From the NCBI GenBank assembly GCA_947628615.1, contig CANRAO010000004.1, positions 31,279 to 95,278 of the forward strand: a stretch of 64,000 bases of DNA, in the 5' to 3' direction. A program made the translations under genes and the position numbers. The DNA is from an uncultured Clostridia bacterium. Lineage in GTDB: Bacteria > Bacillota > Clostridia > Oscillospirales > Ruminococcaceae. How positions within the stretch are numbered: the first letter of the stretch is position 1; each line of letters opens with the position of its first letter. Of this stretch, positions 3,034-14,785 are shown piece by piece. The notes below the pieces were generated by a model. That model had not been told where the DNA came from and made no database searches. It was given only the letters and a program-made list of their open reading frames with translations.

Positions 3034-4401
3034 ATGGATGAAAAAACACTTGAATCGACTGCGCTTGAACTTATTGAAAACAAGCAGTATACAAAGCTGA
3101 AGGCATTCTTAAAAGACCAAAATCCATATGACGTCGCATCTTTGATGGAAGAGATAAACGATATGGATCTGACCCTTGTTTTCAGAATTCTCCCTAAAGA
3201 CAATGCGTCTGAAATTTTTTCAAATCTGCCAAGCGAGATTCAGGAAAAGTTGATAAACTCTTTTTCTGAAAACGAGCTTCGTAAAGTATTAGACGAACTG
3301 TTTCTTGACGATACTGTAGACCTTATTGAAGAAATGCCTGCAAATGTGGTATCAAGAATTTTAAAGAACACCGATTCTCAGACCAGAAAAAGAATAAACG
3401 AAGTCTTAAACTATCCTGACGACAGCGCAGGAAGTCTTATGACAATTGAGTACGTTTTCTTCGCAAAGGATATGACTGTTGCCGAAGCTATGAAAAAGAT
3501 TAGGCAGGTCGGCGTTGTTAAGGAAACGATATACACCTGTTATGTAACAGAGTATAGAAAACTTATTGGAACGGTCGAGCTTCTTGATCTTATCACAGCA
3601 GACGAAGAAGCAAAAATTGAAGAGATTATGGATACCAACGTAATCTATGCGAACACTCATGACGACCAGGAAGAGGTTGCAAACACGATCCGTAAATACG
3701 ATCTTATGGCAATTCCCGTTGTAGACAACGAAAACAGAATTGTCGGAATTATCACAGTAGACGACATTATCGACGTTATCCACGAGGAAACGACCGAGGA
3801 TATTCAGAAGATGGCAGGTATTTCGCCTACAGATGAATCGTATTTCAATACCTCTGTTTTCTCGCACGCAAAGAGCAGAATACCTTGGCTTTTATTTCTA
3901 ATGCTTTCAGCTACTCTTTCGGGAGCTGTTATAAACCACTATGAAAGCCTTTTAGTTTCAATACCAATACTCTTTTCATTTGTTCCTATGCTGACAGGTA
4001 CAGGCGGAAACTGCGGTTCACAGTCATCAACTATAGTTATTAGAAGCCTTGCTATGAACGAAATTGAATTCAAAGACTTCTTTAAAGTAATGTTTAAGGA
4101 GTTCAGGATTGCTCTTTTGGTTAGCTTTGTTTTAGCGGCGGTAAACGGCATAAGAATCTGGTTAGTATACAGAAACGACGCTGATATAAATTCCGCCCTG
4201 CTGGGTTTTGTAATCGGACTTTCAATCATCGCCACAGTAGTACTTGCAAAAACGGTTGGCTGCGTGCTTCCAATGATTGCAAAGAAGCTGCACTTTGACC
4301 CTGCAATTATGGCGGCTCCGCTTATCTCAACAATCGTGGACGCCTGTTCGGTATTTTTATACTGCAACATCGCAATAAAAATTTTTGATATTCTGGGATA
4401 A
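3034..4401 (+). CDS. mgtE: Magnesium transporter MgtE
   Basis: A 455-residue Mg2+ channel/transporter with the usual order: an N-terminal MgtE_N helical domain (about 1-125), two CBS domains (about 130-250, with TCYVTEYRKLIGTVELLD and IPVVDNENRIVGIITVDD), a linker helix, and a five-helix membrane domain with PMLTGTGGNCGSQSST typical of the pore region. It imports Mg2+ and is gated by Mg2+ at the CBS domains. An ATG at 3028 is only 2 nt from GGAGG, whereas the ATG at 3034 has 8-nt spacing, so I chose 3034. The gene is monocistronic behind the M-box leader and ends at a hairpin terminator. Confidence 0.95.
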   Translation: MDEKTLESTALELIENKQYTKLKAFLKDQNPYDVASLMEEINDMDLTLVFRILPKDNASEIFSNLPSEIQEKLINSFSENELRKVLDELFLDDTVDLIEEMPANVVSRILKNTDSQTRKRINEVLNYPDDSAGSLMTIEYVFFAKDMTVAEAMKKIRQVGVVKETIYTCYVTEYRKLIGTVELLDLITADEEAKIEEIMDTNVIYANTHDDQEEVANTIRKYDLMAIPVVDNENRIVGIITVDDIIDVIHEETTEDIQKMAGISPTDESYFNTSVFSHAKSRIPWLLFLMLSATLSGAVINHYESLLVSIPILFSFVPMLTGTGGNCGSQSSTIVIRSLAMNEIEFKDFFKVMFKEFRIALLVSFVLAAVNGIRIWLVYRNDADINSALLGFVIGLSIIATVVLAKTVGCVLPMIAKKLHFDPAIMAAPLISTIVDACSVFLYCNIAIKIFDILG

Positions 4402-11252: not shown

Positions 11253-12935
11253 ATGCTCGTTAAAGAGCGTAATCATATTATGAGATACAACGAAAACGAT
11301 TCCGTAAATAACGACGGAACATATCACATTAAAGGCGATAAAAACAAAGAAAACTTTACAGATTATTATGACAAAGCCTTTAACGAAGAGCCCCATGATG
11401 AGGAAGAACTCGGCGCTGAATTTGCAAAAGGATTTCACGAAGAGATTAATATAGATGTAGATCCCTATAGGGATACCAGAAAAGAAAACCCCTTCCAAAA
11501 TCCCAATTACAGACGTGTAAATAACGACAGATACTATGATGAGCAAAACGCTTATAATGATTACGAACAGAATTCGTATGACGATTACTACAGAGAAGAC
11601 ATACAAAACCCATATTATGGGCAAAATCAAAACAAAAGAAACGGACAAGCCAATATGAATAATAATGATTTCAGTTATGAAGACCGGTATACAAGACGCA
11701 GTCAGAATCAAGGCAGAGGCAATCAGAACAGAAACTATCCAAACAGGAACCAAAATCCTCCGCCAAGACAGAGCGGCAATTACAGAAATAATCAGAGTTA
11801 CCAGAACAGAAGACGCCCTCAGTCTAATAATAGACAGCAAAGAAGTTATAACAACAGAGATTATGACAGAGGTATTGATAGAGATTACAGACAGCGTGAA
11901 AGATATGACGATTTTGACAGTCATGAAAAGAGAAATAAAAAGGGCAAAAAGAAAAGAAAATTCACATTCAAGAAGTTTTTGTTTATCCTGATTTTATTGA
12001 TTCTCGTTATATTTGGACTGCTGTCCGCACTTATTCTGCATTATATCGGGCTTATGAATCTTGTAGATACAGGCGATAGAGTTGCAAACTCAGCAAGCGT
12101 TATTTCATCTGATAATGTTGAAAATATACTTATTATCGGCAGTGATTCAAGAACCGAAGACGAAAGAGCACGTTCTGATTCTATGATTCTTTTGTCAATA
12201 AATAAGGAAAGCAAACAGCTTGTGCAGACATCATTTATGAGAGATATGTATGTGGAAATTCCGGGATTCGGAGAAAATAAAATCAACGCCGCCTATAACA
12301 ACGGAGGTCCCGAGCTTGTTATGGATACCATTGAGCAAAACTTCAATATTCAAATTGACCACTATATACAGATTGATTTCTTCTCATTTATTGATATTAT
12401 CGACGCTCTTGGAGGATTGGATATAGAAATAACAGACGCAGAAGCACAGGCTATGACCGATCCATTAGGTGAGCAGAATAAATATCTTAAAAACGACAGA
12501 GGTACCGACTATCTCAAAGAAGGCGGAAAAATCCATATGAACGGCAATCAAGCTCTTGCATATGCAAGAATAAGGCATATTTCAGGAACTACCGGAACAG
12601 ATTTTGGCAGAACAGACCGTCAAAGAAAAGTGTTAAATATGATTATTGACAAAATCAAGGGAGCAGGAATTTCAAATATAAACAAAATGCTTGAGAATGT
12701 TCTTCCTCAAATCACTACTAATCTGACAAAGAACCAATTATACTTCCTTTCGCTTAGAGCACCGTTTATTCTAAGTTATGAGCGCATTGAGATGAGAATT
12801 CCTTACGGAGATGAGGACAGCGCATCAGATAAAAGATACTGGGAATACGGAACAGGCACAGGAGGCTCATCAATACTGATTGTAGACTTTGAAAAGAATT
12901 CAGCATTGCTGAGAAAAACTATCTACGGTTATTAA
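11253..12935 (+). CDS. LytR-CpsA-Psr family cell-wall polymer ligase
   Basis: A 560-residue protein. The first ~225 residues form an unusually long cytoplasmic region rich in Asn, Gln, Arg and Tyr, ending in a Lys/Arg cluster. One membrane helix follows (about 236-262, FLFILILLILVIFGLLSALIL), then an extracellular LCP domain with ILIIGSDSRTE, ARSDSMILLSI, FMRDMYVEIPGFGENKINAA, ALAYARIRH and GRTDRQRKVL. LCP enzymes transfer anionic polymers from lipid carriers to peptidoglycan, which fits the tar genes in the window. The ATG at 11253 is only 2 nt after AGGAGG; the ATG at 11280 has weaker context. A GCTC/GAGC hairpin lies between them, so the start is uncertain. Confidence 0.93.
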   Translation: MLVKERNHIMRYNENDSVNNDGTYHIKGDKNKENFTDYYDKAFNEEPHDEEELGAEFAKGFHEEINIDVDPYRDTRKENPFQNPNYRRVNNDRYYDEQNAYNDYEQNSYDDYYREDIQNPYYGQNQNKRNGQANMNNNDFSYEDRYTRRSQNQGRGNQNRNYPNRNQNPPPRQSGNYRNNQSYQNRRRPQSNNRQQRSYNNRDYDRGIDRDYRQRERYDDFDSHEKRNKKGKKKRKFTFKKFLFILILLILVIFGLLSALILHYIGLMNLVDTGDRVANSASVISSDNVENILIIGSDSRTEDERARSDSMILLSINKESKQLVQTSFMRDMYVEIPGFGENKINAAYNNGGPELVMDTIEQNFNIQIDHYIQIDFFSFIDIIDALGGLDIEITDAEAQAMTDPLGEQNKYLKNDRGTDYLKEGGKIHMNGNQALAYARIRHISGTTGTDFGRTDRQRKVLNMIIDKIKGAGISNINKMLENVLPQITTNLTKNQLYFLSLRAPFILSYERIEMRIPYGDEDSASDKRYWEYGTGTGGSSILIVDFEKNSALLRKTIYGY

Positions 12936-12997: not shown

Positions 12998-13173
12998 ACA
13001 GTAAAGATAAAAACTTCACGCTGAAAGCTCCCCTATGGACATAAATGAACATAAATCCGCAATATTTCTCTTATGCCACTCCCTGCGCATAAGAAGTTTT
13101 TAAATTCACTGATAAAATATAATATTCCAAAAACTGATGTAATGTGACAAATTAAGACTCATAAAAGCATAAT
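12998..13173. other. Spacer without a supported gene
   Basis: I see no coding potential here. One hairpin, CTTATGC..GCATAAG at 13071-13094, is followed by TTTTT after a few bases and could be a weak terminator on the plus strand. Confidence 0.5.
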
Positions 13174-13204
13174 AAGACCGATACATTACTAATGTATCGG
13201 TCTT
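13174..13204 (-). terminator. Perfect 15-bp inverted repeat ending the mini-ORF transcript
   Basis: AAGACCGATACATTA and its exact complement are separated by one base (13189). The transcript side is followed by TTATTATG, only a short U-tract. The symmetry means it may act on both strands. Confidence 0.7.
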
Positions 13205-13261
13205 AGATATATATTCAATTTGTAATCTGAATCGCATTTAATTCTATTCAAATAATCGGTT

Positions 13262-13381
13262 TCACTCTTCCGAATATCCACATAGCCTTAAATCATTCAG
13301 TCTTAACACTTCATCCGCTAAGCTCCAACTTAATTTTGAATGTCTTTTCTTAATTATTTTTTTGATCTTGATAACTAACAC
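13262..13381 (-). CDS. Possible 39-residue ORF at the 3' end of the mini-ORF transcript
   Basis: From a GTG at 13381 the frame reads a lysine-rich start (KIKKIIKKRHSK) and then an amphipathic, protein-like stretch LSWSLADEVLRLNDLRLCGY ending SEE. The frame stays open upstream to a stop about 14 codons before the GTG, with a TTG adjacent. There is no clear ribosome-binding site, unlike the other mini-ORFs in this transcript. The composition looks more coding than random for such AT-rich DNA. It could be the tail of a decayed gene or a small protein. I do not recognise it. Confidence 0.3.
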   Translation of the reverse strand: MLVIKIKKIIKKRHSKLSWSLADEVLRLNDLRLCGYSEE

Positions 13382-13483
13382 CAATGTTGCTTGAAAATCA
13401 GTGACATTTACTTTAAATAAAATTTAAATCTTTATCAGTAGATTTATTCTGAACTTAGATTTCGTTAATACAGTACAACTAAT

Positions 13484-13519
13484 CTACAAGCGTCTCATTG
13501 ATGAATCCTCTATTGCCAT
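13484..13519 (-). CDS. 11-residue mini-ORF (MAIEDSSMRRL)
   Basis: ATG preceded by AAAGAGGTGAGTCCA, a good ribosome-binding site at 8-9 nt, with the same GTCC(A/G)ATG start context as the other mini-ORFs of this transcript. Function is unknown. Confidence 0.35.
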   Translation of the reverse strand: MAIEDSSMRRL

Positions 13520-13538
13520 TGGACTCACCTCTTTAATT

Positions 13539-13586
13539 CTAAATTTTAATCATTCGGCCTTGATAGGATTTAATTCTTTTTAACAT
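13539..13586 (-). CDS. 15-residue mini-ORF (MLKRIKSYQGRMIKI)
   Basis: ATG preceded by AAAGGGTGTGATAGGA. The peptide is strongly basic and could be amphipathic. It lies between the very short mini-ORFs and the 11-residue one, with about 19 bp to the next start. Function is unknown. Confidence 0.35.
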   Translation of the reverse strand: MLKRIKSYQGRMIKI

Positions 13587-13897
13587 TCCTATCACACCCT
13601 TTCGTTTTTTATTCTAATCAACAGGATTTCTCAGTCAAAAACTTAATAAACATAAATTTTAAGTTTTTCAAATATTAACTGTTCATTGGAACTTTCTCCT
13701 TTTTAAATTTGACCTGTTTTGTATTTTTCAATACCTTTAATTAGCACATCGGACTATCTTCCTTTCAATTAATGCTTAGGTTTGAAAAGGATCTTAACAG
13801 TTCATCGGACCTTTCTCCTTAATTAGAATTTGTGAATCAAGGCTTGAAATAAATAACTTAGCTCCCGCTGTTTTTATCTCTTCCTTTCTTCAACTAT

Positions 13898-13926
13898 AAT
13901 ATAACACAACTTATAGAGAATGTCAA
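13898..13926 (-). promoter_or_regulatory. Promoter of the mini-ORF transcript
   Basis: On the minus strand TTGACA (13926-13921), a 17-bp spacer and TATATT (13903-13898). Transcription would start near 13890 and run leftward. The divergent DUF1292 promoter starts about 60 bp away. Confidence 0.8.
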
Positions 13927-14107: not shown

Positions 14108-14488
14108 ATGAACGAAGAAATGGATATGCAGCCTGATCTGTATACGCTTGTTGACGAAGAGGGTCAAGAGCAAATGTTTGAGCTTTTGGATTCACTCGAG
14201 TATGAGGGGGAAACATATTACGCTCTAACACCTTATTTAGAAGATGCTGAAGCAATTCTTGCTGATGACGGCGAAGTAGTTATTTTGAAGTCAACATACG
14301 AGGGCGATGAAGAGGTTCTTGTTTCTGTTGACGACGATGATCTTTTCGACAAGCTGGGCGATTTGTTTATGGATCGCTTTGCTGAACTGTTTGAAGACGA
14401 TGATGACGAAGATTCTATTGAAATCGAAGGCAGCGACAGGGTTGATCTTGAAAACGGCGAGGTTGATTTGACTAATCTGGACGATTAA
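14108..14488 (+). CDS. DUF1292 domain protein (YrzB-like)
   Basis: A 126-residue, very acidic protein. The stretch LYTLVDEEGQEQMFELLDSL and EYEGETYYALTPY followed by VVILKSTYEGDEEVLVSVDDDDLFDKL is the DUF1292 pattern. In Firmicutes this gene usually lies near yrrK/ruvX and mltG, which are absent here. Its role is unknown. The last 30 residues are an Asp/Glu-rich tail longer than in B. subtilis YrzB. AGGAGG lies before the ATG with good spacing, and the promoter is well defined. Confidence 0.88.
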   Translation: MNEEMDMQPDLYTLVDEEGQEQMFELLDSLEYEGETYYALTPYLEDAEAILADDGEVVILKSTYEGDEEVLVSVDDDDLFDKLGDLFMDRFAELFEDDDDEDSIEIEGSDRVDLENGEVDLTNLDD

Positions 14489-14567: not shown

Positions 14568-14785
14568 AGAAAGAAACTTATTTGAAACTAAAGCTTTCTG
14601 CCTTGCGCGAACAAGCACAGTTTTTATAATCCAACACATAGAATAAGGGAACTAAGCTCTGACTGAGGATTGCAGACCTCCCGGCTTTTGCCGGACGAAG
14701 GGAGCGCGAGGCTTTCAGGCCGTTACCCACCTGCACAAGTGCGGGTTTTATTCACTGTGCGACGGCAAGGCGGATATATTAGAAT
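14568..14785 (+). ncRNA. ssrS: 6S RNA (SsrS)
   Basis: A non-coding, GC-richer stretch with its own promoter and terminator. The ends match the 6S closing region: TTTCTGCCTTGCGCGAACAA near the 5' end pairs with GACGGCAAGGC at the 3' end, and GCACAGT pairs with ACTGTGC inside it. These blocks resemble the TTTCT..GTTCGCAAGC and GGCGGCA blocks of known 6S RNAs. The middle has hairpins (CCGGCTTTTGCCGG and others) and an open region. 6S RNA binds the sigma-A holoenzyme and lowers transcription in stationary phase. SRP RNA, tmRNA and RNase P signatures are not seen. Confidence 0.78.

Follow-up and report, generated by a model that had tools for sequence, protein, structure and literature searches.

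The window analysed here, a stretch of 64,000 nucleotides from an uncultured clostridial bacterium of the family Ruminococcaceae, contains a spacer without any open reading frame (ORF) of at least 60 codons. On the minus strand of this spacer an earlier note had recognized a promoter (TTGACA-17-TATATT) and a perfect 15-bp stem, with at least five ATGs behind Shine-Dalgarno sites between them; the promoter, the stem, and five such ATGs are present (Table 1). The three starts said to be followed by one or two residues after Met were found, as were the frames of 15 and 11 residues. The common context described for the starts, GTCC(A/G)ATG, holds in that the contexts are nearly identical, but one of them is GTTCCAATG and not GTCC. 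A frame of 39 codons exists mechanically, from a GTG at 13381, but it is unsupported as a gene because it has no evident Shine-Dalgarno sequence and its second codon is a stop in the close relatives L004, L005, and L006. The predicted RNA of 722 nt folds better than its own shuffles (z -3.4, with 0 of 20 as good). The CTATTGACA type of promoter also precedes tRNA-like genes in relatives, and AACTATTGACA promoters lie upstream of putative tRNA genes, identified by eye, in L019 and L020. We predict that the unit is transcribed from a promoter of the stable-RNA type to the terminator-like stem.

Table 1. Features of the unit and its surroundings in the window, and positions of ATG-less modules in other loci
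Feature	Position	Strand	Sequence, product, or basis
Promoter TTGACA-N17-TATATT	13898..13926	-	sequence; CTATTGACA type
Start module and mini-ORF 1	13794..13820	-	AAGGAG, GTCCG, ATG AAC TGT TAA
Mini-ORF 1, frame	13805-13794	-	ATGAACTGTTAA; encodes MNC
Start module and mini-ORF 2	13741..13765	-	AAAGGAAG, GTCCG, ATG TGC TAA
Mini-ORF 2, frame	13749-13741	-	ATGTGCTAA; encodes MC
Start module and mini-ORF 3	13675..13703	-	AAGGAG, TTCCA, ATG AAC AGT TAA
Mini-ORF 3, frame	13686-13675	-	ATGAACAGTTAA; encodes MNS
Hairpin TGATAGG/CCTATCA, loop holds start of 15-codon ORF	13561..13594	-	RNAalifold, 14 genus loci
15-codon basic ORF (frame 13586-13539)	13539..13586	-	MLKRIKSYQGRMIKI; counterpart in 14/14 genus loci
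Module and 11-codon ORF (frame 13519-13484)	13484..13534	-	MAIEDSSMRRL
Conserved hairpin AAATC...TCAG/CTGA...GATTT, 3' of 11-codon ORF	13426..13463	-	alignments
Terminator-like 15-bp perfect stem	13173..13205	-	
Next gene beyond the terminator-like stem	11253-12935	opposite to unit	
DUF1292 (yrzB-like) gene, divergent neighbour	14108..14488	+	PF06949 match at G000:C4:45434-45658
6S RNA, past DUF1292	14592..14780	+	RF00013, 50.6 bits vs gathering score 46.4
ATG-less modules, L054	rc 2004, 2386		
ATG-less modules, L120	767, 1176		
ATG-less modules, L116	1097, 1325, 1555		
ATG-less module, L123	754		
ATG-less modules, L127	569, 752		
ATG-less modules, L140	587, 707, 829		

Besides the window's own copy, the locus was recovered by a DNA search from 13 of 14 genomes of the same genus, the exception being G002, which is 84% complete. 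The promoter is kept in all 14 genus loci, and these fall into two architectures. In type A, to which the window and eight relatives belong, three to five minis precede an ORF of 15-17 codons, one of 11-23 codons, and a structured tail. Five genomes have type B, which opens with the two longer ORFs and carries two or three minis of the form start-AA(A/G)-stop at the 3' end. Tandem duplication has raised the number of minis from three to five in two of the type A genomes. The terminator stem is kept in six of the eight type A relatives, in a shorter form in L006, and L007 and L009 have a different G+C-rich stem at its position. These two loci were dropped from the module count because no sensible unit end could be set, so that the own-genus figures refer to 12 of the 14 loci. 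Their units contain 47 modules, compared to a mean of 0.37 in shuffled sequences (maximum, 2 in 30 runs) and none on the reverse strand. All 35 modules outside the longer ORF stop within three codons, and 17 of the 47 have exactly two codons. The +1 frame stops within three codons in 22 of 47 modules and the +2 frame in 1 of 47; as the +1 frame is also short, the short frames in the genus count mainly through their conservation between species. The content of the minis changes (MNC, MKY, MIC, MN, MC, MCY, MCC, MVH, MNS, MNR, and MK).

An alignment of seven own-genus species refutes the decayed tandem array that the earlier note had offered as one explanation, since the modules have a mean pairwise identity of 0.85, compared to 0.57 for the rest, and the ATG is invariant. 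The same note had asked whether the starts are conserved and the codons after them vary, and here the outcome is only mildly positive. The codons have an overall identity of 0.74 compared to 0.85 for the modules, and from the ATG on the values are 0.66 against 0.72 upstream for mini 1 and 0.65 against 0.70 for mini 2, but mini 3 shows the opposite trend (0.91 against 0.67).

A covariance model of the two-ORF core (R1) matched the own-genus loci strongly and gave E values of 0.02-0.09 in 7 of 297 genomes for other genera. We followed the unit through its synteny with DUF1292 instead. A DUF1292 gene could be placed in 109 of the 119 genomes of the family, and the neighbourhoods were taken from 100 of these, all from outside the genus (two own-genus genomes and seven others were left out). 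According to a script, the promoter and a first module lie divergent from DUF1292 in 45 of the 100. Ten more loci among the other 55 combine a match to the promoter with one or more modules that end within four codons, and were not counted as positive (L099, L119, L133, L141, L149, L150, L162, L167, L171, and L178). The set of units used for the module statistics also numbers 45; it excludes L099, which is spurious, and includes L187. A second family of the order carries the unit in four of the five genomes examined (L028 and L230-L232, with L215 negative), and of 43 loci in the order's remaining families (two sets, of 27 and 16), not one shows the promoter-then-module pattern.

Genome contigs were also scanned for the first module in one of its forms, without regard to position. 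This returned 11 stretches, 10 of them with a divergent DUF1292 gene within about 1 kb, including one from Candidatus Soleaferrea massiliensis AP7 (L097/L189), a cultured member of the family. At least two of these 10 duplicate contigs of the family set (L189/L097 and L199/L154), and in five no promoter of the unit's type was found in the 350 nt preceding the module. L196, a contig assigned by its label to Bacteroides sp., has a module and a divergent DUF1292 gene resembling those of Clostridia and is possibly mis-binned or mislabelled. The DNA search also gave many promoter-only matches without a unit, several of which are, by eye, tRNA, rRNA-leader, or other promoters. 6S RNA was found in 16 of 20 loci with the unit, but 11 of 20 family loci that were scanned and lack the unit also have it beside DUF1292, and it occurs in 8 of 15 loci that belong to other families of the order or lack the unit. 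The DUF1292-6S linkage is thus spread more widely in the order than the unit, and as it occurs without the unit, the neighbourhood is no argument for a shared function and was dropped as evidence.

The constant feature of the units is a Shine-Dalgarno sequence followed by (T/A)CC(A/G)ATG and, almost directly, a stop. The 45 other-genus units hold 119 such modules with ATG or GTG, 45 of which are first modules and part of the criterion by which the units were selected; dinucleotide shuffles gave a mean of 4.3 (maximum, 10 in 30 runs) and the reverse strand 2. Among the 74 non-first modules, 40 read exactly start-NNN-stop, whereas of the 596 remaining ATGs of these units 48 open two-codon frames (Fisher P ~4e-20), and 52 have an in-frame stop within three codons. 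With the first-ORF modules included, a stop within three codons occurs in 20 of 119 modules in the +1 frame and in 18 of 119 in the +2 frame. When TCC was not required, a Shine-Dalgarno sequence preceded 59 of 90 two-codon ATG frames; among frames with three to eight codons, 44 of 204 had one. Two-codon modules were also counted in stretches of fixed extent (at most 1.6 kb): the 45 positive loci have 58 on the forward strand and none on the reverse strand, and the other 55 loci have 20 and 4. A few counted modules may fall outside the RNA, because some unit ends were not found or were set too far downstream. The second codon is AAA 12 times, TAC 7, GCA 6, GCT 3, and GAA, AGA, and TGC twice each, with six others once. 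These differences suggest that the start and the stop are kept rather than one peptide. The stops of the family and genus minis together are TAA (62), TAG (22), and TGA (14). The module is not the ordinary start context of the organism, as GGA-N4-10-GTCC(A/G)ATG has eight matches in its genome, two of them in the unit, compared to two for a control.

Some units, such as those of L113 and L146, contain five to seven minis. In L146 (507-839), six closely spaced minis have ACC in place of TCC and the second codons GAA and GAC. On the reverse strand of L192 (~3130-3320) there are three near-identical tandem copies of the module with an 8-codon ORF, an array expansion, and the unit of L114 has, from ~900 and beyond the RNA, several tandem copies of a repeat of ~70 bp (AATAACCCTGGGCTGTTACCG...). 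In some other-genus modules (L054, L055, L120, L123, and L127), GGAGTGAGTCC is kept and the ATG is absent, so the motif must also serve something besides translation start. These ATG-less modules form a second conserved element, GGAGTGAGTCC or a close variant followed by approximately RCC(A/G)GAAA..TTTAG, and upstream of them there is often a short basic ORF ending in I, F, or K.

The predicted structures distinguish the longer ORFs from the minis. In the genus, none of the seven pairs of the TGATAGG/CCTATCA hairpin is broken in 14 loci and one pair has two-sided changes. The TCAG/CTGA pairs of the second hairpin are invariant in the 14 loci, so pairing is neither supported nor refuted there. 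In the family units, the start module of the first ORF pairs with a stretch near the end of the same ORF. Across 47 loci this pairing has a mean of -11.4 kcal/mol with the locus's own loop and -9.7 kcal/mol with the loops of other loci, and none of 5000 permutations reached the own value (L099, L131, L156, L180, and nine of the 14 genus loci were left out of this comparison). Arms of the types GAGUCC, GAUUCC, and GGUUCC pair more poorly with loops taken from loci with a different arm type. The result is the reverse for 60 family minis: they pair worse with their own downstream sequence than with foreign sequence in 4974 of 5000 permutations, so they appear to be kept free. The first-ORF start pairs with its own loop in a co-varying manner and the minis do not. 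A partner arm for each mini was likewise absent among 89 minis (mean z, -0.14 downstream and -0.27 upstream). In units of up to 1300 nt the predicted unpaired fraction is 0.36 for the first ORF, 0.48 for the minis, and 0.47 for all positions; the accessibility of the minis is thus only at background (0.483 compared to 0.473; P = 0.08). Taken locus by locus, the hairpin was stronger than its shuffles (P of 0.05 or less) in only 11 of 57 cases. In the window we treated the 11-codon ORF as the counterpart of the first ORF of the family units, and its hairpin is weak (-6.5 kcal/mol; z, +1.0).

The start sites of the minis are good but not exceptional. Their mean predicted pairing with the 16S tail is -11.8 kcal/mol in the family and -12.0 kcal/mol in the genus, compared to -10.4 kcal/mol for 45 genes of the window, each taken at its best in-frame start; the tail was that of relatives, its pattern being found in 8 of 20 genomes searched and not in the organism's own. 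CC at positions -3 and -2 occurs in only 2 of the 45 window genes, and in the modules it is unexplained by translation start. Pairing with the full 16S 3' tail was rejected as the reason for TCC, since the excess is modest and the variation follows it poorly; 18 of 66 minis have A rather than U at position -4, contrary to a simple 16S-pairing account.

The unit did not correspond to a known RNA family. There was no Rfam 15 match at the gathering score in the unit, either in the window or in two sets of 10 and 20 homologous loci, and no convincing match appeared at relaxed thresholds: no RF00013 match lies inside the unit, and the three weak matches to other families reach up to E 5, the best being E 0.26. 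The matches outside the unit were RNase P, tRNA, the neighbouring 6S RNA, and an M-box (ykoK) magnesium riboswitch (RF00380; 89 bits) at 2599-2771 of the window. A phage origin was not supported either, with no match in 50,697 phage records. No such RNA is described in the literature that we searched, as judged from titles and the openings of abstracts. The unit defines a conserved class of predicted RNA without an Rfam entry that is built from minimal ORFs, and such a class is missed both by ORF finders with a length cutoff and by Rfam 15.

The compared sequences show start modules with immediate in-frame stops, conserved at a shared position, and a co-varying pairing at the first ORF that is lacking at the minis. 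Among the readings offered by the earlier note, micro-peptides alone fail to explain the start-NNN-stop frames, and ribosome occupancy or a decoy appears to be the best reading left. The explanation that we tentatively favour is that the unit encodes a stand-alone RNA with an array of two- to three-codon start-stop ORFs as its core, which may capture ribosomes in repeated cycles of initiation and termination. We consider such a mechanism plausible. A ribosome would bind each free module through its good Shine-Dalgarno site, make a dipeptide or tripeptide, stop with the Shine-Dalgarno helix still in reach, and restart at the same AUG, so that each module would park one ribosome. The longer ORF, with its start covered, could be a gate that opens only when ribosomes are plentiful. 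In PMC8708949, a strong Shine-Dalgarno sequence is said to let a ribosome re-initiate on a minigene without dissociating, and transcripts with toxic minigenes stay engaged with ribosomes for longer; the minigene studied there acts in cis and is not toxic. For the RNA described here we infer transcription, abundance, ribosome binding, and an effect on the cell. An effect of the captured ribosomes on the cell, in trans, as opposed to one on the RNA alone through protection or folding, is the least certain part of this model. The far-reaching version, in which an abundant RNA with free start-stop sites would sequester ribosomes or 30S subunits in trans when growth slows, as a translation-side counterpart of 6S RNA with the hairpin-gated ORF as its sensor, seems rather unlikely to us.

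It is somewhat unlikely, and yet the strongest of the rival explanations, that the minis act in cis only, with ribosomes protecting a long AU-rich RNA from nucleases or pacing its folding, while the RNA has some unrelated function or is the message for the two longer ORFs. PMC8708949 describes a two-codon minigene in the txe leader that works in cis, probably by message protection, and gives a like account of other leader minigenes. The units also hold conserved ORFs of 10-25 codons and hairpins, as such a role would allow. Against it, the minis reach five to seven in some units, their number varies within one genus, and their place relative to the longer ORFs has shifted from 5' to 3' between the types, all of which is more than one protective ribosome would need.

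The ATG-less modules of several genera, together with an NCC at -4 to -2 that is kept beyond the needs of starting, would fit a sponge in which GGAGUGAGUCC is the binding site of some protein or of a second RNA, with the start-stop frames arising as a by-product or added for regulation. A by-product would not place the stop exactly one codon past the start in 40 of 74 modules, and the best known partner of GGA sponges, CsrA, was not found in the organism's genome (PF02599 in 0 of 1 genome, 93% complete; 3 of 14 control genomes positive). We regard a sponge as quite unlikely.

Minigenes of the bar type, in which release of peptidyl-tRNA lowers the charged pool of a few tRNAs and slows translation, are an improbable model for these units. 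AUG-AAA-stop, AUG-UAC-stop, and AUG-GCA-stop recur, several times in some units, and minigene toxicity depends on the rate of peptidyl-tRNA release according to PMC8708949. The second codons vary between genera, however, and the type A minis of the genus have two or three codons with Asn, Cys, Ser, and others, so there is no pointer to one tRNA.

A polycistron of micro-peptides, with the 11- and 15-codon ORFs as its products and the minis serving to couple their translation, is more improbable still. The counterparts of the 15-codon ORF in all 14 genus loci have internal alignment gaps in multiples of three, and short basic ORFs recur in other genera, but between genera the first-ORF peptide is similar only close to its start (often M-D/Y/E/A-x-x-E), and the hairpin pairing constrains a part of its sequence. 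A decayed gene or chance array, suggested by the lack of longer ORFs in the spacer, is refuted by the conservation, the unit lying in the same place in 45 of 100 other family genomes with its modules more conserved than their surroundings.

To our knowledge, two-codon minigenes have been described singly or as a pair, in leaders or a phage. In the units described here, start-stop minigenes are the conserved building block of a predicted stand-alone RNA in many genera of one family, and this suggests that selection acts on starting and stopping translation and not on the product. If the RNA captures ribosomes, it would represent a new level of translation control and a new kind of regulatory RNA, and even if it acts only in cis it would be a natural test bed for start-stop cycling.

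The unit can be compared with several known systems. Leader-peptide attenuators also combine short ORFs with hairpins that cover a start, but in the unit no structural gene on the same strand precedes the terminator, and the next gene lies on the opposite strand. Type I toxin-antitoxin systems consist of a hydrophobic membrane peptide and an antisense RNA, and the unit's peptides are, by eye, polar or basic. Sponge RNAs such as CsrB and RsmY are alike in carrying many copies of a GGA-containing motif in one RNA, but in the unit most of the motifs are start sites followed by stops. 6S RNA imitates a start site and holds RNA polymerase; the logic proposed here is similar, a stable mimic of a start site that would hold a central machine, and the two are also chromosomal neighbours, but the proposed target of the unit is the ribosome. 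The closest likeness is to the two-codon minigenes, such as bar of phage lambda and those of the txe (mg2) and LEE1/ler leaders, which likewise consist of a Shine-Dalgarno sequence, an AUG, one sense codon, and a stop, the composition found in 40 of the 74 non-first other-genus modules and 17 of the 47 own-genus modules. The txe and ler type, with regulation of a downstream gene in the same transcript, does not extend to the window, whose unit ends at the terminator-like stem. The minigenes described in PMC8708949 are one or two elements in the leader of a gene, whereas the predicted transcript described here has several of them and no downstream gene, and the unit is kept across genera.
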